A DNA stretch of 49,257 nt, taken from positions 1 through 49,257 of the IMG/VR virus record IMGVR_UViG_3300006790_001506; one strand, given 5' to 3'. Source of the stretch: a virus. A program made the translations under genes and the position numbers. The notes under the pieces were generated by a model, which saw nothing but the letters and a program-made list of their open reading frames with translations, did not search any database and was not told the DNA's origin. This document shows, one piece after another, positions 1 through 49,257 of the stretch (within the stretch, counting starts at the first letter, position 1; every line of letters begins with the position of its first letter).

Positions 1-180
1 CAGCAGCACCAGCAGCACCAGCAGCACCAGCAGCACCAGCAGCACCAGCAGCACCAGCAGCACCAGCAGGGCAGCACCGGCCGCGCCGCCGATCGTCAGC
101 ACCAGCAGGGCCGCAGATCGGCAGCAGTTCGAGGGCAGCACCAGCAGCAGGGCAGCAGCAGCACCATCAGGGCACCAGCT
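1..180. repeat. CAG-rich 9-bp minisatellite at window edge
   Basis: Seven perfect tandem copies of CAGCAGCAC run from position 1 to 63, followed by degenerate units (CAGCAGGGC, CAGCACCAG) to about 180. One forward frame stays open through it to a TAG near 290 but has no start codon, so I do not call a gene. The array touches the window edge, which is where assemblies often break, so its true length is unknown. Confidence 0.9.
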
Positions 181-192
181 CAACCCGGCCGC

Positions 193-309
193 GCGTCGGG
201 GAAATCTAATCGCGAGCGGCAGGGCGTCGGGGAAAAAGAGAAACCCCCGGCGGTTAACCGGGGGCGCGTCGGGGAAATACAGAGGCAGGTCTAGGCGCGT
301 CGGGGAAAA
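193..309 (+). repeat. Four phased copies of GCGTCGGGGAAA (iteron-like)
   Basis: Copies start at 193, 224, 266 and 297. The start-to-start spacings are 31, 42 and 31 bp, close to 3, 4 and 3 turns of B-DNA, so all four copies would lie on the same face of the helix. The block is non-coding, abuts the end of the HigA-like fragment and contains a leftward terminator between copies two and three. The function is unknown; iterons, terminase or integrase accessory sites are possible. Confidence 0.75.
231..264 (-). terminator. Intrinsic terminator of the leftward accessory operon
   Basis: Read on the minus strand, CCCCCGG pairs with CCGGGGG (244-250 with 258-264) around a 7-nt loop. It is followed by a T-rich run (TTTCTCTTTTT). 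It lies 46 nt beyond the stop of the last leftward gene, as expected for the end of that operon. Confidence 0.75.
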
Positions 310-533: not shown

Positions 534-1541
534 TCAAGCGCGCATCGGCGGCCGTTGATCCATGGAACCCATACGCAACCCGCCGGGCCTGATCCGCACC
601 CGCGCAGCACGCGAGCCGGACACGCTCACCAGCGCGTCACCGGTGCCAAGGGTGCGGATTGTCTCAGCGCCTGCCCCCATGGTTTCAGCAGCCGCGCGCA
701 AGCCTTTTGCCTGCGACGGCGTGGCGGCGCGGAGTCCATGCTGGATCCGGGTGGCAAGCTGGCCTAGCACGGCGTCAGGCAGATCGGCCGGCGATTGGCT
801 GACATAGACCAGCGCCACGCCTTTCGAGCGGATCAGCCGAGTCACCTGCTCCACCCGCCGCACCAGCGCAGGCGGTGCATCCTGAAAAACCAAGTGCGCC
901 TCATCGATCATCACCAGCAGCCCGGGCGCGGCCACGTCGCCCAGCTCACCGAGGCCGCTGTAGAGCGAGTCCAGCAGATGCGCGCAATATGCACCATAGG
1001 CGCCCGGCAGATCGGCAAGCCAAGCCGCCCCGGCCACCGTCACGCCTTGAGCCCGGCGCGGGTCGAATGTGGCACGCCCGAACGCCCACGGTGCTGCGCG
1101 CTCCAGCCGCAGAATGGCGCGACCTACCGCCGCCACCGATTGCAGCGACACAAGCCCGTAGCGCGCCCCCAGATCACCGGCAGCGGCGGCCGTGTCGCTC
1201 AGCAGCGCGCGCAGATCGGCGAGCGATTGCACCGGGCGCCCGGTATCCTCAGCCCATGCTAGGGCAATGGCAAGCGCGCCTGCCTGGGCCGGGCTCAGAT
1301 CAAGCGCCCGCGCGACCATATCCGCGCCCATGGCATCAATCTGCATGCGTGGGCGGATCAACTGCCCCGCGCGCTCTAGGTCGCCTTTGGCATCGATCGC
1401 CAGCACAGGGCACGGCGCCCGGTCCAGGATAGCGGCGGCGCTTGTGGTTTTGCCGGTGCCCGTGGCGCCAAAAATACCGACATGACGGCAAAGCGCGTGC
1501 CAAGGGATAGAGGCGCCGGGGCCGAGGTGTAGCGCGGTCAT
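534..1541 (-). CDS. HerA-like P-loop ATPase (DUF853-type, 335 aa)
   Basis: Walker A is GATGTGKT (residues 25-32) and Walker B is LLVMIDEAH (208-216). They are followed by a sensor-like segment, VALVYVSQSPADLP, and then a C-terminal tail. The Walker B region, RLIRSKGVALVYVSQSP and the 'LATRIQHGLRAATPSQ' segment match the HerA/DUF853 (YjgR) branch of FtsK-HerA translocases. It is shorter than YjgR (about 500 aa), lacking the N-terminal part and C-terminal extension. The start overlaps the preceding gene's stop (ATGA). It is the only ATP-driven DNA motor seen outside the terminase, so a role in DNA translocation, replication or defence is plausible but unproven. Confidence 0.75.
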   Translation of the reverse strand: MTALHLGPGASIPWHALCRHVGIFGATGTGKTTSAAAILDRAPCPVLAIDAKGDLERAGQLIRPRMQIDAMGADMVARALDLSPAQAGALAIALAWAEDTGRPVQSLADLRALLSDTAAAAGDLGARYGLVSLQSVAAVGRAILRLERAAPWAFGRATFDPRRAQGVTVAGAAWLADLPGAYGAYCAHLLDSLYSGLGELGDVAAPGLLVMIDEAHLVFQDAPPALVRRVEQVTRLIRSKGVALVYVSQSPADLPDAVLGQLATRIQHGLRAATPSQAKGLRAAAETMGAGAETIRTLGTGDALVSVSGSRAARVRIRPGGLRMGSMDQRPPMRA

Positions 1542-17995: not shown

Positions 17996-18271
17996 ATGTC
18001 CGTTACGAAACACGACCACCTCCCGTTTGTACGGGTTGACGCAAACGGCTCCATTGAATCCAACTGGGATGTCGAAAAACATCGCAGCGGCGATTACGGA
18101 AAAGACTGCGCCCTCGGCCGGTCCTTCTGCAACGCGCTTTTCATGCGCATGCACTTGGATGGCTATCCGCTCCTGTTGAGCAGGACACTGGAGGCTCAGG
18201 TGCGCGCGGGAAAGTGGGGGGCCATCGAGATCGGCTTCGCGCAGCAGCTCTCAGAAGAGGTTAGCACGTAG
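17996..18271 (+). CDS. Last early-operon protein, hypothetical (91 aa)
   Basis: AAGGA (17982-17986) is 9 nt before ATG 17996, so I prefer it over ATG 17987. Soluble, with histidines and charged residues (TKHDHLPFVRVDANGS...). No family recognised. Its end overlaps by 11 bp the end of the convergent spanin gene, with no terminator between the two operons. Confidence 0.55.
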   Translation: MSVTKHDHLPFVRVDANGSIESNWDVEKHRSGDYGKDCALGRSFCNALFMRMHLDGYPLLLSRTLEAQVRAGKWGAIEIGFAQQLSEEVST

Positions 18272-18524
18272 GCTCTGCCCGCGCCTCAGCCGCATCGAGA
18301 ATGCAGTCAATGCTCTCGATGCGGCCATTCGCGGTGGCCAAGGCTTCAACGTGGTCGGTCAACAGGATCCCGACATCTGCGAGCGTGCGCGCTTCTCGCT
18401 TGGGAACGTGCACCGTCTGCCGCAGCGACTCCGGGACGACAGGCGTCACGTAGACTGTCCGCTCTTTCTCAGCGCAGCCCGAGATCGCGAAGACGATCGA
18501 GAAAATCAGGGGAAAGTTCTTCAT
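18261..18524 (-). CDS. Rz1-like: Rz1-like outer-membrane spanin lipoprotein (87 aa)
   Basis: Start 18524 follows GGAGA by 5 nt. MKNFPLIFSIVFAISGC is a lipoprotein signal with lipobox ISGC; a Pro/Val-rich stretch follows (VTPVVPESL). The first 56 bases overlap the end of the Rz-like gene in another frame, the classic spanin arrangement. It would link to the inner-membrane spanin and fuse the membranes at lysis. At 87 aa it is longer than lambda Rz1 (60 aa). Confidence 0.7.
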   Translation of the reverse strand: MKNFPLIFSIVFAISGCAEKERTVYVTPVVPESLRQTVHVPKREARTLADVGILLTDHVEALATANGRIESIDCILDAAEARAEPTC

Positions 18525-23871: not shown

Positions 23872-26466
23872 TTAGTAGAACTGGACCTTTTGGGAAAGGG
23901 GGTTGTCGAGCGGGATGAACGGCTGCCCGCCGAAGTTCAGGATGTTGTTGTGCAGCGAGATGCAGCCGCTCATGTTGCGCGGGCACCCCAGCGCAGCGTA
24001 GACCGTGGCGCCCACCGTCAGACCGCGCAGGCCGCCGCGGATTGCCAACGTGGTGCCGTCGAAGTTGGTGTTCAGGATCGTCCGGATCTCGCGCTGCCCG
24101 GTCGAGCGCATCCATTCAAGGGTGCCACCGATGAAGTTCGCGAAGCCCGTGCCAAGTGTTTCCTCCAGCGTGACCATGGATCCTGCCATTGACGCCACCA
24201 CGGCTTCCACGGTCGCTGCCGCCTTGCTCGCCTGACACTGGGGGCCGTAGAGCACATGCGGGCACCCGAGCTGGTAGTTGCGCCTCAACCCGGGGCGCTG
24301 AATGGTGGTGCTGACCGGCGTGCAGGCGAAGCGCAGCTCGTTGCCTTCGATCTCCGGCGCACTGACGCGGCCGAGCCAGATTGCCGGGTGATTGGTGAGG
24401 CTCACCGGATCTTCAGCGTGACCCTGGAAGATGGTGAGGTTGATCACCTGCGACGGCGGGAAGGCGTTAAACTCCCCCATCAGATCGCCCCGGTTGGCCA
24501 GTGAGACGGTCAGAGTCGACTTGTCGAGGTCGCCCGAGGACTCGATGTCGCTGTGCTTGATCGGCCACGGCTCAAAGGTAATGCCGGCGCGCTCGATGGC
24601 AGTTTCCCCATCGGTGAAGGCGTAGGGGCCGAAGGTGCCGCTCTCGAAGGCGCGGCCCGGTACCATACGCCCGGTCAACCAGTGGCCAAAACGCCAGTTG
24701 GGCGCGTCACCATAGTAGGAGGTGCGATTGGGGAATGTCGGATAAGGCCGGGCGTCCCAGGTCCAAACCGAAGCAGAATTCCACTCGATCATCCCGTCTT
24801 CGTTGTTCCCGTTGCCGGGGCGCCAGTAATCCAGACTGGCTTCAAGGAACACGCGCTGAATCGCGGCATCCGGTCGTCCGTTCGAGTAGTGGGGCAGCGC
24901 GCTTTCCGCCGACTTCGGATCGTAGAAAACATTCGGTTGGTTCGAGCCCTTCTCCACAGCAGGGCAACCGAGTTCGGTGAAAACGATCGGCTTGGATTCA
25001 GCAACCCAGTCTGTCGCCGTTCCCACTTCTTCGCCATCAATGCGGTTGATGTGCGGATTGCTCCACCACGACCGCATATCCTTCTGCCGGAACACCCATG
25101 GTTTCGAATGCGCACCATCCGTGATCGGCGTTCGCACTTGAGCATCACGATCGCTTTCGGAAGCGTAATACCAGTCGAAATACTCACCACCTTCGACATT
25201 CTTCTTCAAATAGAATAGGTCGTAGTTGCTGGTGTATCCATCCCACCAGTCGCGGTGAGTTTTCCCTTCCCGCCAATCGGAAAGGGGGAAGTAATTGTCG
25301 ATCCCGATGAAGTCGATGTTTGTATCGGACCAGAGCGGATCGAGGTTGAAGCAGAGATTGCTTCCGTATTGATCCGAGTGATATTCCGACCAATCGGCAG
25401 CATAGGAAATGCGCACATCTTCCCCCACGATCGTGCGCGCCTTGGCCGCCAAAGTCTTGAGATGCGTCACAGCCGGGTAGTTGTTGACGCCTGCTCCGCG
25501 CACCCGGGTGAGCCCGACCATTTCCGAACCAATGAGGAAGTCATTGGCGCCCGCCGCCGCAGCCAGAGTGGCCATGTGCAGGATGAAACGCTCATAGCTC
25601 CAGTTCGCGGGGCCGCTGTAATCCACGGCCAGGTTTGTGGCGTCCCAGCCGAAGTCAGCGGGGTCATGGTCACCGAAGAAATCCGCAACCTGGTCGGCAG
25701 CAGCGCTTGCCCCCTGGACCGTCCCAGGTTGCCCGGCGGCCGGGTGGCATGTGATCCGCCCGCGCCACGGGTACTGCGCCTGCTCAGCCGCGCCGTAGGG
25801 GTCGGGGAGCGCGTTGTCTTCGGGGATGTCCATCATCACAAACGGATAGAGTGTCACCCGAAGCCCGGCCGCGCGCAGGTACTGGATTGCTTCATAAACC
25901 GATCTGTCGGAGGGAGTGCCACCGAAGGCTTTCACGTAGGCATCGCCGCTCAAAATATCGAGGATGGCATCCAGGATGGACTCGTAGGTGGGGTCTCCAC
26001 CGGGGATCTCGACATTGGTGAATATGGAAGTTGCCTCGGCCGACGCACGATCAAGGTTTCCAACGCGCCAAGAATACGGACTGGTTGTGAGGGATTCCTC
26101 ACCTACCTTCGGGATCACGGTACAGTTCCCGCAGCGCAGGTCCGTGCCGAACCAGGTAACGACAAGGCTGACGTGCTGGAGATACGGGAACGTCGCCAGT
26201 AGATCTTTGACCGATTGCACGAAGTCAGTGACCTCGTTTCCTGCGATGCGATTCAGCGGTTCAGAGCGATCAATCGAAATCGTTTCACTGATCTCATCCA
26301 CCCACGTCTTGTCAACAGGAGTCACCCCATACCCGAATTCGGTGGCACCCGGTATCATGGTAATGGAGCGCACCAGCGATTCTGCGGTCGGATCAGTGCC
26401 TTTGAAGAGGAACAGCTTGACCGGGGATGCGTCGGCTCGGGATGTTTCACGAAGTCCAAAAGCCAT
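23872..26466 (-). CDS. GTA-type TIM-barrel fused to BR0599 hub domain (864 aa)
   Basis: Residues about 170-600 form a glycosidase-like TIM barrel of the GTA_TIM type: GLRVTLYPFVMMDIP, NDFLIGSEMVGLTRVRG (E315), IDFIGIDNYFPLSDWR and KPIVFTELGCPAVEKGSNQP (E498). E315 and E498 are placed like acid/base and nucleophile. Residues about 620-864 match the DUF2163/Phage_BR0599 hub family, with GCPHVLYGPQCQ and CPRNMSGC. In gene transfer agents the barrel belongs to the last tail protein and DUF2163 is separate, so this fusion is unusual. It probably forms the hub and degrades cell-wall or surface glycans. Confidence 0.75.
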   Translation of the reverse strand: MAFGLRETSRADASPVKLFLFKGTDPTAESLVRSITMIPGATEFGYGVTPVDKTWVDEISETISIDRSEPLNRIAGNEVTDFVQSVKDLLATFPYLQHVSLVVTWFGTDLRCGNCTVIPKVGEESLTTSPYSWRVGNLDRASAEATSIFTNVEIPGGDPTYESILDAILDILSGDAYVKAFGGTPSDRSVYEAIQYLRAAGLRVTLYPFVMMDIPEDNALPDPYGAAEQAQYPWRGRITCHPAAGQPGTVQGASAAADQVADFFGDHDPADFGWDATNLAVDYSGPANWSYERFILHMATLAAAAGANDFLIGSEMVGLTRVRGAGVNNYPAVTHLKTLAAKARTIVGEDVRISYAADWSEYHSDQYGSNLCFNLDPLWSDTNIDFIGIDNYFPLSDWREGKTHRDWWDGYTSNYDLFYLKKNVEGGEYFDWYYASESDRDAQVRTPITDGAHSKPWVFRQKDMRSWWSNPHINRIDGEEVGTATDWVAESKPIVFTELGCPAVEKGSNQPNVFYDPKSAESALPHYSNGRPDAAIQRVFLEASLDYWRPGNGNNEDGMIEWNSASVWTWDARPYPTFPNRTSYYGDAPNWRFGHWLTGRMVPGRAFESGTFGPYAFTDGETAIERAGITFEPWPIKHSDIESSGDLDKSTLTVSLANRGDLMGEFNAFPPSQVINLTIFQGHAEDPVSLTNHPAIWLGRVSAPEIEGNELRFACTPVSTTIQRPGLRRNYQLGCPHVLYGPQCQASKAAATVEAVVASMAGSMVTLEETLGTGFANFIGGTLEWMRSTGQREIRTILNTNFDGTTLAIRGGLRGLTVGATVYAALGCPRNMSGCISLHNNILNFGGQPFIPLDNPLSQKVQFY

Positions 26467-34220: not shown

Positions 34221-36689
34221 TTAAATCGGCGTGATAGACCCGCTGCCGTCCAAAGCGGTCCACGGATCGGTGGGCAATGGGCCGGTTGCGCGGTAAGCCT
34301 TTCCGTCTGTGGTGTTGATCGCGATCTTGTTGACGTATTTGTCGAAGGTATTCACCGCATGCGTGGCGATGGCGAAATTCGCAGCACTGGTGCTGCCAAC
34401 ACCCCGACCCGCGACGAACCCTCCGCCAGAAGTCGCGGTGTCGAAATCGCCCAAAATCATCCCAAGATCAGCCTTACAACCGGGATTGGTCGACACGCCG
34501 ATTACGCCCGTGGCTTCAGCACGCCGCTCAACCCGGATATCACCACTCCGCAAAACCGCGCTTGCGGAAGAAAGGCGTACTCCGGCTTTACCCGTCGCCA
34601 CTCCGTAGAGCATCGGTGTGCCCGAGATATTGATCTCCACGTCATTAGACGCCGCGGTTGCATCAATGACGTGGTTTGCAGATTTTGACCCGCCCCGATC
34701 CACGGTTCCGTATGCCCCGCCGACAATATCGACGCGGCGGGCACTGGTGATCTCCAAGCCTGCCCCCTGACCCTCCATCACGCAGTCTTCCAGTTTTATG
34801 TAGGCCCCCGGCGCCTGAATAGTCAGGCCATGCTCTCGCCTCGTCCCTTTCGTGACCACTTTGCGCATTCCGACGCGGCCAATGCCGCCATCAATTCGGG
34901 AGTAGACGCTGATGCTCTGTGCGGTCAATTCGTCAGGCTCATTTCGCGCATCGATGTTGATGTCGTCCAACAGTACATTGTCCACCTGACCAGAATAACC
35001 GATGCCTTCCGAATTCTCGACCGCGATGCTGCGGTTGGTACCGGATCCGGAGATGCCGCGCATCGTCACGCCGTGCATGCGCCCCATCATGTCATACCTG
35101 TCCTGCGGACCACCAAGTGCAATAATTGCGGCGCGGGCGAATGCCGAATGCGCAACGCTGTCACTGTAGATGCTGTCGAGGATATCCCAATCATATTCGA
35201 TGTGCGTCGGATTGGAGTTTTGGACAAACTGGATCCCGTCATCGCCGCAAGCGACGTTTAGGTGACTATTTCGCCATCCTCTACCTCCGACTACCCGGAT
35301 TGCCCCTGTACCTGCCGCATTAGCCGGGGTTCTTGTCCGGATTGCGTGTAACATGCTGTTGTCACCGGCAAGCAGCATTGCCAATCCACCGGCGCCTCCC
35401 CCAGAATAGTGACCAATTACCTGCATACGGCTCAGGCTCATGTGCGAGCCAAAAAGCTCCACGGCATGCCCATGCTTGGTAGCATCATCAAATGCGCCCC
35501 AGATGCCCCCAGATATATCCAGATCATCGGCCCATGCGAACAGGGTCGCATGGCATGTCACGCCAGAAATCGTCTCATTCAGACGGTAATCCAAAGTGAA
35601 ATTATTCCCACTGACAGATGCAATCGGTGCGATCAATCCTTGCAGATAATACTTTCCATCGGAGCAACGCCGGATCAGCAACTTGTCACCGATAACCGGC
35701 GGAGATGCCGCGCCAGCCAAAGCCGCTGACGTGACGACCAAGGAGCCGTTAGCCACACCGTTCAGGGTGGCGCCGGTATCGCGGAAATCCCGCGATTTGT
35801 CCCGCTGCAACAAGCGTCCGCCTTCGGATCGCTTCACCATGCGAGTGCCTGCCGAAAGGGCCATTTTCAGACCGGCAGGCGCGATGATCGCTGTCTCGCA
35901 TGAAACGACGAGGTGGTCGTCATCCCGGACGCCAATACCATCAGCGACAAGCTCGGGCAAAAATCCATTGATGGCCACAGAGCCATCGTAGGCTGTACCC
36001 CGTGCAGGATTGCCATTGTATCTCTCGCCGAGAAGCCCACGAAGAGTCACGCCGTTCAGCCTGCGTTGCTGCGCGGACTGAACCAATGCGCCGCTGAAAG
36101 GCGTGCGCCCGACTGGATCTGGGCTATCAGGCGCACCAAGAGCGGTAGCTGAGATGGTATCGTCAGCTACCGCGAATCTGACGCCGCCCTCGTTCTCCAG
36201 ATCATACAGGTCTGCGTCCGCCGCCAGTACCCGGTAAACAAGCGTCCCCGCCTGAACTAAATCACCAACTCCAATTGTAGAATATGTGATTGAAGTGTCT
36301 TCGAGTAGAGCCGTGAGGTTTGCCTTAGTATATCGAAAGTTGCTCTTTATATTTTCTACGTCTGATGTCAAAGTACTCACGGCAGACGTGGCTAGTAAGG
36401 TTTGCAGCTTTTCGGCCGCACCCTCACTGTTCTTGTAGATCGCAACGCCATCTTCTTCGACAATCGAAAAACCTTTACCTGGTTTGACAACTGCAATCGC
36501 CGCTTCAACCGTTTCGTAAAGCGGAAAACCAAATGATGCCGCAATTGCGATTGCATTTACGCTATCGTCAATAACATCCGCCATCAGAGTCATTCCGGCG
36601 CGGAGATCCGCAGCGTCAATTTCTTGCGCTGTATTGTCGACATAACGAGTTGCAGTCAAAGATCTCAGATCATTTGTTGTTACAGGCAT
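34221..36689 (-). CDS. Tailspike/tail fibre with beta-helix (822 aa)
   Basis: GAGGTGG precedes ATG 36689. The first ~200 residues look like a fibre-anchor region (MPVTTNDLRSLTATRYVDNT...). From about residue 200 the sequence has right-handed beta-helix character: short strands with Gly/Asn turns (VLLDDINIDARNEP, GLTIQAPGAYIKLEDCVMEG, EINISGTPMLYGVATG). This is typical of pectate-lyase-fold tailspikes. It probably binds or cleaves surface polysaccharide. The N-terminal coding part is AT-richer than its neighbours. Its position, between U-like and V-like genes, is atypical. Confidence 0.7.
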   Translation of the reverse strand: MPVTTNDLRSLTATRYVDNTAQEIDAADLRAGMTLMADVIDDSVNAIAIAASFGFPLYETVEAAIAVVKPGKGFSIVEEDGVAIYKNSEGAAEKLQTLLATSAVSTLTSDVENIKSNFRYTKANLTALLEDTSITYSTIGVGDLVQAGTLVYRVLAADADLYDLENEGGVRFAVADDTISATALGAPDSPDPVGRTPFSGALVQSAQQRRLNGVTLRGLLGERYNGNPARGTAYDGSVAINGFLPELVADGIGVRDDDHLVVSCETAIIAPAGLKMALSAGTRMVKRSEGGRLLQRDKSRDFRDTGATLNGVANGSLVVTSAALAGAASPPVIGDKLLIRRCSDGKYYLQGLIAPIASVSGNNFTLDYRLNETISGVTCHATLFAWADDLDISGGIWGAFDDATKHGHAVELFGSHMSLSRMQVIGHYSGGGAGGLAMLLAGDNSMLHAIRTRTPANAAGTGAIRVVGGRGWRNSHLNVACGDDGIQFVQNSNPTHIEYDWDILDSIYSDSVAHSAFARAAIIALGGPQDRYDMMGRMHGVTMRGISGSGTNRSIAVENSEGIGYSGQVDNVLLDDINIDARNEPDELTAQSISVYSRIDGGIGRVGMRKVVTKGTRREHGLTIQAPGAYIKLEDCVMEGQGAGLEITSARRVDIVGGAYGTVDRGGSKSANHVIDATAASNDVEINISGTPMLYGVATGKAGVRLSSASAVLRSGDIRVERRAEATGVIGVSTNPGCKADLGMILGDFDTATSGGGFVAGRGVGSTSAANFAIATHAVNTFDKYVNKIAINTTDGKAYRATGPLPTDPWTALDGSGSITPI

Positions 36690-43937: not shown

Positions 43938-46175
43938 CTACCCGAGTCGTTCAGCAAGTTCCGCCATCGTTGGTCGACCCGCAGTCTTCTTCGATTTGAA
44001 CTCGGGCTCCGGTTCCGCTGCGCCGGTAGGCTTGAACACCAATTCGTTGTCGTCCCATTCCTCGGCCCAAAACGGCGGGTCATCCCATCGGATGCGATCC
44101 CATTCGAACAGCATCAAAGGCACGTTCCGTTCCCGGCCGCGCAGCACTGCGCCTAGGGCGTAATAGCTCAAGTCAAAGGCTTCGTTTCGCCGTTTGCCGG
44201 TCTTCTCCCAACCCTTTTCCGTGCGCACCTCGGCGGTGAGCTGGGAATAGAACCAGTTCTCAGCCCAATCAGGGTAACGGATCAAACCGCCTGTCTCACC
44301 CTCATCAGAAACGCGCCGGTGCATGAGAAGACTCACGCGGTCCTTGAGCTTGTTCGAGTTCAAGAAGACCACTGGCACGTCACCCTTGGCCACCGCGAAT
44401 TGATCCTTCTGCGATGCGTCTGGATGCCGAGTTTGCGCTTCAGGGGTATTGGTCACCGATTTCACGGTGTCCCCTTTGATGAGGATCAGTCGGCGGTGGG
44501 AGCCATCCTTGCGTCGTTTCAAGGTTCGCCAGTAATTATAGGCGTGCCCGGTCACACCTTCCCGACCACCGGAGTCACAAGCCGTCGCCCGGATCCGCAT
44601 GCGCCGCCCGGAGCCGTCACCCAGTTCGTAGGTCTGGTTCATTACCAGTTCCTCGATCCTGGCCCAATCTTCCCCATATGCGGCTGGGTCGATCGGCAGG
44701 CGTTCCCCTCGGCTGTTCTCGCGCAAAGAAACGCGGATCTTGAACATGTCCACGACGACAAGATCCCCCGTAGCCGTGAAGCCGTTCACCTGAACATCAA
44801 ATGCCGATTTCTGCACGTCGATAGTTGCGACAAGGAAGCGCACACCTTCGGGAACGGTTGGATTTTCGGGAGTCGATCCCCAGTCCTCAGCTTTGGCTTT
44901 CAGGGTTTCCGGGGCAATCTCGGACAACCGCGAATAGGGGATATAGTAATTCCCCTGATCGGTCGTGATTGTTTTTCGGAGCGGACCATCGTCGGAGGTG
45001 TCGTTGTAAGTCTTGAGTGCCCGCAGATATTTCTCGACCAGGTTCCCCCAGCCTTGGTAAGCAGCAGCCGGCCCTTTCAGCCAGAAAGAAGCGATGGTGG
45101 AGCGCGTCACCTTCATTCCAGGGCGGGCTTTGGTCTCACCATCGCGGCCGGGTTCGATGTATTCCCCTTCCCGGATCCAGTGGCCATAGTGGTTCATCTC
45201 GTCCTTCTGCCACGGGTACAGAATGCAACCGTTGTGGGGACAGATCATCGTGGTGGCCTCTTTGGCCTCCATCGGGTCTTCCAAGTTATTCCAATCGAGC
45301 AGCTTGAAATCCGGCTCGAACCAGTTGTCACATTCAGGGCAGCACCACTGCCAGCGCCGCCGGTCGCCGCGGTTGTAGAGTTCGAAGATACCCTTGATCG
45401 GCGGCGCCTCGTGGGGTGAAGAAGGCATCCAGCGTGGATCGGTGATCTCCTTGTTGGGGTTGGGCGATGATTCCGCAGCCGTCATTGCGAAGCGACGGAA
45501 AGTCGTGGTCCGCATCGACCCAAGGTCATATGCGTTACCTTCGCCGTCCACGTTGTCGTTGCTCGGGCTCCGGTCGTAATCGATGAACATCACCCGGCCG
45601 ACCGTGATCCCGGAAAGGTTCGACGCCGTTGGATAGGTCAGCAGGAAACGCATCCCGCTCTTGAAGGTCTTGTCGAAGGTGTTGTCGTATTGCCGCGCAG
45701 TGATCTGCTCAGAGCGAATTGCCGTGGAGGCCATCAGGTATCGATCAAGATCACCCTTTGACCATTTGCGCGCATTTTCCCGGTCCATGTGAACATAGAG
45801 CATGTCGGCGGGATCGGTCTTGACGGTGTGGCTGATCCAATTCAGGCCCATGACCGTTTTGCCTGTCCGCGCGGGACCGACAAAGATCATTCCCTGAAAC
45901 TCAAGCGAGGTCAGAACGTCCTGCGGCAGCTTCAGGTATGGAGTCGTGGAAAGCAGCCAAGGCTTGCTGCCGCCAGCGCTGCCAATGCGCGTAAAGTCTT
46001 CTGCGGCCTCGGTGACGGTCATCCGCCCCGCGGGCTTCATCTCAACGAAGGCCGCGGCAAAAACATCCTCAAGCGTGCGGTACTTTGCACGCGCCGCCAG
46101 TTCCTTGATTGTCAGCGGACGGATTGTCCGCAGCGCCTCACTCTTCGTCGTCAGCGTTCGGTCGATCTGCGTCAT
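43938..46175 (-). CDS. terL: Terminase large subunit, GpA family (745 aa)
   Basis: The ATPase domain has Walker A GPARTGKT (residues 100-107) and a Walker B-like VMFIDYD (195-201). A zinc site follows (CCPECDNWFEPDF, CPHNGC). The C-terminal nuclease domain includes VRFLVATIDVQKSAFDVQVN and ATACDSGGREGVTGHAYNYW. Sequence order and length fit lambda gpA (641 aa) with a longer C-terminus. It cuts and translocates DNA into procapsids. Confidence 0.85.
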   Translation of the reverse strand: MTQIDRTLTTKSEALRTIRPLTIKELAARAKYRTLEDVFAAAFVEMKPAGRMTVTEAAEDFTRIGSAGGSKPWLLSTTPYLKLPQDVLTSLEFQGMIFVGPARTGKTVMGLNWISHTVKTDPADMLYVHMDRENARKWSKGDLDRYLMASTAIRSEQITARQYDNTFDKTFKSGMRFLLTYPTASNLSGITVGRVMFIDYDRSPSNDNVDGEGNAYDLGSMRTTTFRRFAMTAAESSPNPNKEITDPRWMPSSPHEAPPIKGIFELYNRGDRRRWQWCCPECDNWFEPDFKLLDWNNLEDPMEAKEATTMICPHNGCILYPWQKDEMNHYGHWIREGEYIEPGRDGETKARPGMKVTRSTIASFWLKGPAAAYQGWGNLVEKYLRALKTYNDTSDDGPLRKTITTDQGNYYIPYSRLSEIAPETLKAKAEDWGSTPENPTVPEGVRFLVATIDVQKSAFDVQVNGFTATGDLVVVDMFKIRVSLRENSRGERLPIDPAAYGEDWARIEELVMNQTYELGDGSGRRMRIRATACDSGGREGVTGHAYNYWRTLKRRKDGSHRRLILIKGDTVKSVTNTPEAQTRHPDASQKDQFAVAKGDVPVVFLNSNKLKDRVSLLMHRRVSDEGETGGLIRYPDWAENWFYSQLTAEVRTEKGWEKTGKRRNEAFDLSYYALGAVLRGRERNVPLMLFEWDRIRWDDPPFWAEEWDDNELVFKPTGAAEPEPEFKSKKTAGRPTMAELAERLG

Positions 46176-46887
46176 TCGGCACCCTGCCGCTGGCGTCCAG
46201 TTCGCTCTGAATGTGAGCAGTCATGGACAGGGTTTCACGCGGCATCTCGATGAAGATCTTGCGTAGGTTCAGAACCAGACGGTTCTGCGCGTCGATAAGA
46301 GCGGCGTATTGTTTGTCGGTCAGAATCTCCTTTTCAGGCAATTCCTCGACCCACATCTTACATTCTTCCTTGATCGCCATGTGGGCGCGACCGAGCAGCA
46401 CCAGCACATCATCCGTGTGCCAAAGATCGTTGGAATCGAGCATCACCCGGTTGCGCTGCGCCGCTGAGTCCCACCACATCTTGTTGACGTAGGGGGGCAA
46501 GCTGGCGGCGTTCTGCTGGGCGAACCAGTCTTCGATGCTGCCCCGCGGCGGCACCAGATAGGACATGGCGTCCATGAACTCGTACAGCGGCTTCTGCTTG
46601 CCAGAGACCAGGTGCCAGGAATGAACCGGGCACTTTTCGAGGCGCTTCTCGATCTGCTTTGGCTGGCGGCCCATGACGGCGGCCAAGAATGTGATGCCGA
46701 CCGGCTTGCGGAACTCGCTGTAATGCGGCGTCTTGTTATCGGTGAGGCCCAGTCTCGCCTGCTCTGCAGCCAACTCTTCGGTGTCGCGCTCAAGCATTGC
46801 CTCGCGCGACGGGCGCCCGCGGGCGCGCTTCGACTTCGACGGCTTCTTCGGAGGCTCATCGCCCAAGAGGTCATTGAAGTCAGGCAT
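46138..46887 (-). CDS. terS: Terminase small subunit (249 aa)
   Basis: Start 46887 (MPDFNDLLGDEPPKK) overlaps the upstream HTH gene by 8 bp; the longer frame is an artefact. A basic stretch (SKSKRARGRPSREAML) is followed by TPHYSEFRKPVGITFLAAVM and a helical body, which resembles DUF1441/Nu1-like small terminases. It overlaps terL by 38 bp. The N-terminus F-N-D-L-L matches the portal's. Confidence 0.65.
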   Translation of the reverse strand: MPDFNDLLGDEPPKKPSKSKRARGRPSREAMLERDTEELAAEQARLGLTDNKTPHYSEFRKPVGITFLAAVMGRQPKQIEKRLEKCPVHSWHLVSGKQKPLYEFMDAMSYLVPPRGSIEDWFAQQNAASLPPYVNKMWWDSAAQRNRVMLDSNDLWHTDDVLVLLGRAHMAIKEECKMWVEELPEKEILTDKQYAALIDAQNRLVLNLRKIFIEMPRETLSMTAHIQSELDASGRVPNDADRPNADDEE

Positions 46888-47068
46888 TGGTGTCTCGCAT
46901 CCAAGCCTCGACCTCGCTTTGCCGCCACACCGCCACCTTGTGCGATCGGCGCTGCTGCTTAGGAAACCGGCCATCGTTGACCTGCCGGTAAATTTCGCTC
47001 TTGGAGAGACTCGTGATCTCAACCACTTGTTTCAGGCGCAAAAATCGGTCGTTTGTCAGTTCAGCCAT
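46880..47068 (-). CDS. alpA-like: AlpA/MerR-type HTH protein (62 aa)
   Basis: Start 47068; the longer frame would begin inside the palindrome region. LRLKQVVEITSLSKSEIYRQ is an AlpA-type winged helix, ending AVWRQSEVEAWMRD as in AlpA and excisionases. It lies two genes from the integrase but in the late packaging operon. It could regulate late genes, act as excisionase, or supply the DNA-binding module missing from the small terminase. Confidence 0.75.
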   Translation of the reverse strand: MAELTNDRFLRLKQVVEITSLSKSEIYRQVNDGRFPKQQRRSHKVAVWRQSEVEAWMRDTNA

Positions 47069-47102
47069 GGTGATCGGTTCCTGTGCGTCCCGATCAGGTC
47101 TA

Positions 47103-47117
47103 TCACGTTTCGCGTGA
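47103..47117. promoter_or_regulatory. Perfect 15-bp palindrome at the late promoter
   Basis: TCACG-TTTCG-CGTGA is exact. On the minus strand TTGAGT (47119-47124) and TAGACC (47097-47102) flank it 16 bp apart, so the palindrome would fill the -35/-10 spacer of a leftward promoter 35 bp upstream of the alpA-like gene. This placement is what an operator repressing the late operon would have. The promoter hexamers are only moderate matches. Confidence 0.5.
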
Positions 47118-47227
47118 CACTCAACAGAAAACACACTAGACGTGATTCTGGTTGGACGCGACGTTGTAAAGGGCTGCTGCCGCTCGACCGCGAGACGGTC
47201 TGGAAGAAGTTCGTACCGCGTCGACCT

Positions 47228-47299
47228 TCGGAGGTGCTTCGCCGGGCCTGCCACAGCAGGTTGGGAAAAGCGGTATCACGGGCGCAGAAGCACCTCCGA
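47228..47299. repeat. 13-bp perfect inverted repeat with 46-nt loop
   Basis: TCGGAGGTGCTTC (47228-47240) is matched exactly by GAAGCACCTCCGA (47287-47299). The loop contains a second small stem (CCTGC with GCAGG). It begins 6 nt after the stop of the secreted-protein gene and lacks a T-tract. It may end or protect the integrase transcript, or be part of a cos-type region upstream of the terminase genes. Confidence 0.65.
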
Positions 47300-47812: not shown

Positions 47813-48988
47813 TCACATCAACAAGCTATTGAAGCTCAATTTATCCTCTTTTGCATTTCTTTCAAGTAGGTCGCTATACCACTGCATCATTTCACGCCGT
47901 TGCTCCATCCATTGCGCAGCATTGTATGCTGATCGCACTTGGTCTTTGGGAACGTGCGCAAGCTGCCGCTCGATCCAGTCTGAATTCCACTTTCCGCTTT
48001 CGTTCAGGATCGTTGACGCAGTTCCCCGGAAACCATGGACGGTTGCTGTTCGATGATACCCCATGTTGCGCAGCGCATAAAGCAAGGTGTTTTCGGAGAC
48101 CGGTTTACGATTGCTATCGCGGCCCGGAAGCAGCCACGGCGCGTGGCCGGTCAGCTCCCGCAGTTGCGCCAGCAGTTCCTGCACCTGGCGGCTTAGGGGG
48201 ATCAGGTGCGTCTTGCCCATCTTCATCCGATCCCCCTCGATGCGCCACACGTCACCGTCGATCTCTGACCAGGTGGCATAGCGGATCTCGTTCGTCCGCA
48301 CGAAGGTGTGCATCACGATCGCGAGGCCAAGCTTTGTCGTCTCATCGCCGTCATAGGCGCGCAGGCGGCGAAAGAACTCAGGCAGATCGCTCTCAGCCAG
48401 GGCCGCCCGGTGCTCGCGCTTCGGCAGTGGCTTCAGCGCGCTCATCAGGTTCTCAGCCGGGTTGCTGGAAGCATGCCCCTCTGAGATCGCAAAGCGATAG
48501 ATGGTGCTGACCATCTGGCAGATGCGCTTGGCCGTGTAGATAGCATCCCGTTCCTCGATCTCCCGCAACAGCTTCAGGATCTCCTGTGGCTGGACCTCGC
48601 TAACCACCCGGTCACCAAGACTGGTCAAAATGTCCTGCTCGATCCGGCGCCAGAAGCGCTCCGAATAGGATGACTTCCACTTGGAGCGGTTTGCAGCGAA
48701 CCAGTCTCGCGCCACCTTCTCAAATGTTATGTTATAACGTTGCATAGGGTCACGGCCGGCGGCGACTTCCGCCTTCATGCGGTCGCGTTCCTCACGGGCT
48801 TCCACCAGCTTCACACCTGGGTATCGGCCGAGGGATGCTGTCTTGCGCTTGCCCTGGAAGGCATAGTCCAGGCGCCAGGTCTTCGTGCCGCTGGGGCTGA
48901 CGAAGAGATAGAGCCCGCCGCTGTCGCTCAGCTTGCGGGGTTTCTCGGCGGGCTTGGCCGCACGGCAGGCGGCATCGGTAAGGCTCAT
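47813..48988 (-). CDS. int: P4-type tyrosine integrase (391 aa)
   Basis: I choose ATG 48988 (MSLTDAACRAAKPAEKPRKL), which starts the DUF4102 arm-binding domain as in the family. The longer frame from 49069 would cover the arm-site repeats. SAM-like core domain about 85-180; catalytic residues R231 (FVRTNEIR), H318 and R321 (HGFRGTAS), H344 and Y355 (RSAYNAAQ). It integrates the phage at a tRNA gene. The extreme C-terminus LSFNSLLM carries the F-N-x-L-L tail. Confidence 0.9.
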   Translation of the reverse strand: MSLTDAACRAAKPAEKPRKLSDSGGLYLFVSPSGTKTWRLDYAFQGKRKTASLGRYPGVKLVEAREERDRMKAEVAAGRDPMQRYNITFEKVARDWFAANRSKWKSSYSERFWRRIEQDILTSLGDRVVSEVQPQEILKLLREIEERDAIYTAKRICQMVSTIYRFAISEGHASSNPAENLMSALKPLPKREHRAALAESDLPEFFRRLRAYDGDETTKLGLAIVMHTFVRTNEIRYATWSEIDGDVWRIEGDRMKMGKTHLIPLSRQVQELLAQLRELTGHAPWLLPGRDSNRKPVSENTLLYALRNMGYHRTATVHGFRGTASTILNESGKWNSDWIERQLAHVPKDQVRSAYNAAQWMEQRREMMQWYSDLLERNAKEDKLSFNSLLM

Positions 48989-48995
48989 GGGCGGC

Positions 48996-49212
48996 TCACG
49001 GTATAAATTTGCGTCTACCGTGAGATTTACCGTCATCGGGGTGGGAAACAAGGGGTCTGACTGGGACACATGGCATCCGGAAGCCCCTTATTTCGTTGGA
49101 TCTCGGGAGCACTTGGACCCATTGAGACCCTAATTTGGTGCGGTCGAGACGCACTGTAAGTTGATTGTTTTCAATGCTTTACAGAGTGCCATACCGTAAA
49201 ATCTACCGCCTA
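48996..49212. promoter_or_regulatory. Probable integrase arm sites around attP
   Basis: ACCGT-centred repeats: TCACGGTAT (minus, 48996-49004), TCTACCGTGA (49014-49023), ATTTACCGTCA (49025-49035), ATACCGTAAA (49191-49200) and ATCTACCGCCTA (49201-49212). They flank the tRNA-like core at 49136-49149 on both sides, as arm-type sites flank attP. The two left copies are 12 bp apart, as are the two right ones. Confidence 0.55.
49136..49149 (-). other. attP: attP core matching a tRNA (probably Leu) 3' end
   Basis: On the minus strand TCTCGACCGCACCA equals the acceptor stem, discriminator A and CCA of alphaproteobacterial tRNA-Leu as I recall it. The tRNA body should extend to higher coordinates, but the next bases (CGCACTGTAAG) are unrelated to a T-arm. 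So this is not an intact tRNA. It fits an unsplit attP 148 bp upstream of int. Confidence 0.6.
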
Positions 49213-49257
49213 GAGGTCGGGATGCACCGGGTTTCTCTGGGACTTATGGGGCAGTGA

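Follow-up and report, generated by a model that had tools for sequence, protein, structure and literature searches.

When the last bases of a viral contig carry a short match to the 3' end of a tRNA just upstream of an integrase gene, is this an intact phage attachment site (attP), and what does it tell us about the molecule that was sequenced? We examined this question in IMG/VR record IMGVR_UViG_3300006790_001506 (positions 1 to 49,257, the whole stretch analysed, here called the window). An attP of the P4/lambda tyrosine-integrase type has a core formed by a tRNA 3' end and flanked by repeated arm sites, and it lies next to int. The window differs from this plan in no point of principle; its arm sequence and its target are specific. 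We concluded that a temperate RcD-like (Casjensviridae) phage very probably has its intact attP at 48989-49257, here on a molecule that was not integrated, and that the contig probably covers, as a linear fragment, about two-thirds of the genome. The features are listed in Table 1.

Table 1. Features of the window that bear on the attachment site and on the contig ends.
Feature	Position	Strand	Remarks
CAGCAGCAC array and four GCGTCGGGGAAA repeats	1-308		likely assembly break, not genome end
HerA-like ATPase	534-1541	-	Pfam HerA_C 1e-64; 54% to RcRios gene 88
Terminase large subunit (terL)	43938-46175	-	70% to RcRios terL
AlpA-type excisionase/regulator	46880-47254	-	Pfam Phage_AlpA 1.5e-16; 53% to RcRios excise
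Tyrosine integrase, 391 aa	47813-48988	-	arm-binding (DUF4102-type), central and catalytic domains
Third, inverted arm copy CTCACGGTA beside integrase start	48995-49003	+	inverted repeat
Integrase-proximal arm-type site pair	49017-49032	-	two ACGGTA copies 12 nt apart
Second repeated motif GTCCCA, proximal arm	49062-49067	-	
attP core	49136-49149	-	14 bp identical to host tRNA-Leu(GAG) 3' end
Distal attP arm	49150-49257		phage DNA (judged by motif and position) in place of tRNA body; ends with the record
Distal arm-type site pair	49193-49208	-	two ACGGTA-like copies 12 nt apart
Second repeated motif GTCCCA, distal arm	49238-49243	-	

The core TGGTGCGGTCGAGA occurs as a single exact copy in the whole window, and it lies 147 nt upstream of the integrase start codon (48986-48988). 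Its reverse complement, TCTCGACCGCACCA, ends a complete tRNA-Leu(GAG) gene found in a related viral record (L030, described below); the 14/14 identity covers the edge of the T-stem, the acceptor strand, the discriminator base and the CCA. The original prediction of a tRNA 3'-end match upstream of int was confirmed, and its observation that no tRNA body follows was confirmed by ARAGORN, which detected zero tRNA genes over the window. A match of only 14 nt is short and might have arisen by chance without any relation to integration. The exact chance expectation is ∼0.0004 for this 14-mer and ∼0.017 for any of ∼45 tRNA 3' ends, and the breakpoint against an integrated, 95%-identical relative falls base for base on the edge of the 14-mer, which for practical purposes rules out coincidence.

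That relative, IMGVR_UViG_3300038315_000879 (L030, a 10,470-bp record), was found by scanning IMG/VR with the window integrase. It aligns to window positions 49149-38764 with 95.1% identity over 10,392 bp and 99% over the first 1.2 kb. The alignment begins precisely where the 14-mer has its outer edge, at 49149. On the other side of the breakpoint (49149|49150) lies an entire tRNA-Leu(GAG) gene (L030:22-107) that ends with the core (94-107), and the exact tRNA is thereby named. Judged by its sequence, this left junction of L030, with the order tRNA, core, int, is the integrated form. The window shares the core and int with L030, but at the place of the tRNA body it has 108 bp of other DNA. An integrated copy must have the tRNA body there, which excludes attL, and int on the opposite side of the core excludes attR; the window sequence is therefore attP. 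The proposal of an intact attP from a non-integrated source is thus upheld by a close relative that diverges, at the 14-mer edge, into a whole tRNA. Both L030 and IMGVR_UViG_3300038315_001150 show ∼94-95% DNA identity to the window where aligned, with integrases 100% identical over matched residues; the integrated form, complete tRNA-Leu(GAG) included, is that of L030 and not of the window. A search of IMG/VR for the right lysogen junction (attR) with the last 22 bases of the window gave no match, nor did a search with 20 bases spanning the distal arm and the core.

Arm-like ACCGT repeats had been noted around the 14-mer, and these proved to be real, with a pair on each side. The sequence ACCGTNANATNTACCG at the two arm-type pairs provides the only perfect ACCGTRARATYTACCG matches in the window. 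At ≤3 mismatches, ACCGTRARATYTACCG gave 7 matches against 1.3 expected, a count reached in 0 of 100 shuffles. ACGGTA pairs 12 nt apart (≤1 mismatch in total) occur at only these two places in 49 kb, both strands included. Arm pairs are found at matching positions in the free relatives G007 and G014; the G007 arm is CGGTAGATTTCACGGT vs. CGGTAGATTTTACGGT in the window. The inverted copy is also present in G007 and G014, and in a variant form in the complete phage RcRios. Comparison of RcRios 18047-18407 with window 48989-49257 indicated that the arm motif is TATGGTC in RcRios and ACGGTA in the window, in the same number and with similar spacing. A differing motif with a conserved layout is expected if the arm sites changed together with the integrase. 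The second motif, GTCCCA, was seen twice in the 269-bp stretch (0.07 expected) and lies on both sides of the core in the window, in G007 and in other relatives; this suggests a possible accessory-protein site.

The 108 bp at 49150-49257 could also be read as host DNA, so that the window would end in a prophage junction, with the phage inserted at a secondary site and not in a tRNA gene. Only 108 bp are present there and they have no exact database match, as such a reading would allow, but they hold a 12-nt-spaced arm pair and GTCCCA where the free relatives have them, and we regard a host origin as very unlikely. From these motifs the distal 108 bp is taken to be phage DNA, in agreement with the original view that phage DNA lies on both sides of the core; no host flank was seen from 49150 onward. 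Because the distal arm is only 108 bp long and no second record with an exact copy was found, it was recognized from its motifs and position and not from a long alignment.

The closest known system is RcRios (MW677523; Rhodobacter capsulatus RcD cluster, Casjensviridae; complete, 68.8 kb). The structural module of the window is homologous to that of RcD-like Casjensviridae phages, in matching order. Window and RcRios have in common the order int - xis - terS - terL - portal, arm-like repeats laid out alike in an attP-like region immediately upstream of int, and a repeat-rich stretch beyond HerA. The shared proteins are 26-70% identical (49% for the integrase; terminase and HerA-like ATPase in Table 1), whereas the attP core differs. 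The window integrase (Pfam Arm-DNA-bind_3, 4e-25; Phage_int_M, 9e-27; Phage_integrase, 5e-15) is 49-50% identical to the RcD-cluster integrases. RcD phage genomes carry cohesive ends of 12 bases and are rich in repeats at the right end; the paper that described these phages left their lifestyle undetermined (PMC8601537). Megablast of the last 1.9 kb of the window against GenBank phages gave no match. G007 (IMGVR_UViG_3300046000_009133, 69.7 kb; integrase 61% to that of the window) resembles the window in its nearly identical arm motif, colinear structural genes and attP region without a tRNA, but it has another core (ending in ATCCGCACCA) and carries a replication module on the distal side. 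The G014 integrase is 52% to that of the window; both G007 and G014 have int within the contig and no tRNA upstream. An extra integrase-like N-terminus (MPLSDAACRTAKPSK...; L072, G007:46808-47508) was observed in G007 upstream of the matched integrase, between the integrase and attP.

On the host side, tRNA-Leu(GAG) is up to 99% identical across the sampled Alphaproteobacteria, and the exact terminal 14-mer is present in 19 of the 20 loci fetched, so tRNA genes of this bacterial group do carry the core. A tRNA-Leu 3' end followed by phage sequence was seen in the viral record L030; no related integrase was found beside tRNA-Leu(GAG) in the 20 alphaproteobacterial loci or in 6 other viral records. 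The host is probably an alphaproteobacterium of the Rhodobacterales, as judged from the relatives of the phage (Rhodobacter phages). In the relatives G005 and G008, tRNA-Met(CAT) lies directly upstream of the integrase, which indicates that insertion at tRNA 3' ends is a more general habit of this integrase group and that the tRNA used varies. Sampling of 372 alphaproteobacterial genomes gave no copy of the presumed attP core of G014. The related record IMGVR_UViG_3300003406_000182 has a tRNA-Cys(GCA) gene (L039:1368-1441) between int and terminase.

The original prediction further suggested that the sequence after 49257 may continue at position 1. This is probably wrong: relatives place ∼23-26 kb there, and the two ends of the window neither overlap nor carry a common direct repeat in the range of 10-200 bp. 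The gene order in RcRios is primase, Cas4-family exonuclease, DNA polymerase, ribonucleotide reductase, helicase, HTH, int, xis, terminase and structural genes, with the HerA-like ATPase far beyond the structural genes and then 5.3 kb to the genome end. RcRios, G014, G007 and L116 all have replication genes - HTH - int - xis - terS - terL in this order, and in the free relatives (RcRios, G007, G014) a ∼16-22-kb replication module with primase, DNA polymerase and helicase follows attP on its distal side. The window matches RcRios from int round to HerA, and which way the genome runs from attP can be read from terL together with int, xis and terS. The HerA-like ATPase is near the far end of the phage, and the window stops ∼0.5 kb beyond it. 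RcRios genes 1-19 (those tested) had 0 counterparts in the window, while most are present in G007, G014 and L124; PHROGs analysis of 20 other window proteins detected no polymerase, primase or replicative helicase. We read the absence of the replication module, which RcRios has, as missing sequence: the contig ends before the place where the module is expected, and the size of the gap was counted from RcRios and G007. The window would then represent ∼65-70% of an RcD-like phage of ∼70-75 kb. Scans for the module with alignments of helicase and of DNA polymerase returned no contig from metagenome 3300038315.

A complete or near-complete circular genome of ∼49 kb, in which 49257 joins base 1 and the replication module was lost or never present, would account for two observations: L030 and G002, both from one metagenome, sum to ∼48 kb, and G003 (50.6 kb) likewise spans only int to HerA. 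However, three of the three free relatives have the module on the distal side of attP, and the missing overlap between the window ends also speaks against a circle. The first 69 bp of the window are a perfect CAGCAGCAC array, G002 (∼94% identical) stops within a like repeat beyond HerA, and G003 stops at the stop codon of the HerA gene. Since two of these records end in a repeat and the third at a gene end, base 1 looks like an assembly break, and G003 may have been broken or trimmed. We consider a circular genome of this size improbable. Also improbable is a small ∼50-kb RcD relative that lost the polymerase/primase/helicase module, replicates with host enzymes and has its attP beside the HerA gene. 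An iteron-like or regulatory role is possible for the four GCGTCGGGGAAA copies next to the HerA-like gene (193-308, spaced 31-42 bp), which occur nowhere else in the window and are matched by a set in G002.

If the region is an intact attP on a linear fragment, as we favor, its anatomy predicts that the integrase would bind the arm sites flanking the 14-bp core, and that the core would recombine with its identical counterpart at the 3' end of tRNA-Leu(GAG) in the host. The tRNA would stay intact after integration, with int directly downstream of it, and the AlpA-type excisionase would help the reversal. Past 49257 one would expect the replication module, then the cohesive end, then the repeat-rich end running into base 1. 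The source molecule may have been a virion, an excised circle or a replicating concatemer, all three of which carry attP. Pairing the integrated and non-integrated forms of nearly one phage gave the exact integration site (tRNA-Leu(GAG), 14-bp core) and the arm-site layout for an RcD relative. An intact attP in a contig points to a non-integrated source molecule; it is no proof of a complete genome.

Two tail-region observations were also made. The tail gene at 23872-26466 encodes a gene-transfer-agent TIM-barrel domain (GTA_TIM, 5.6e-126). At 34221-36689, between tail genes, an ORF of 822 aa matches nothing in Pfam or PHROGs; RcRios is almost without a gap at this place and the G002 sequence differs. 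The product of the ORF is possibly a variable tail or receptor-related protein.
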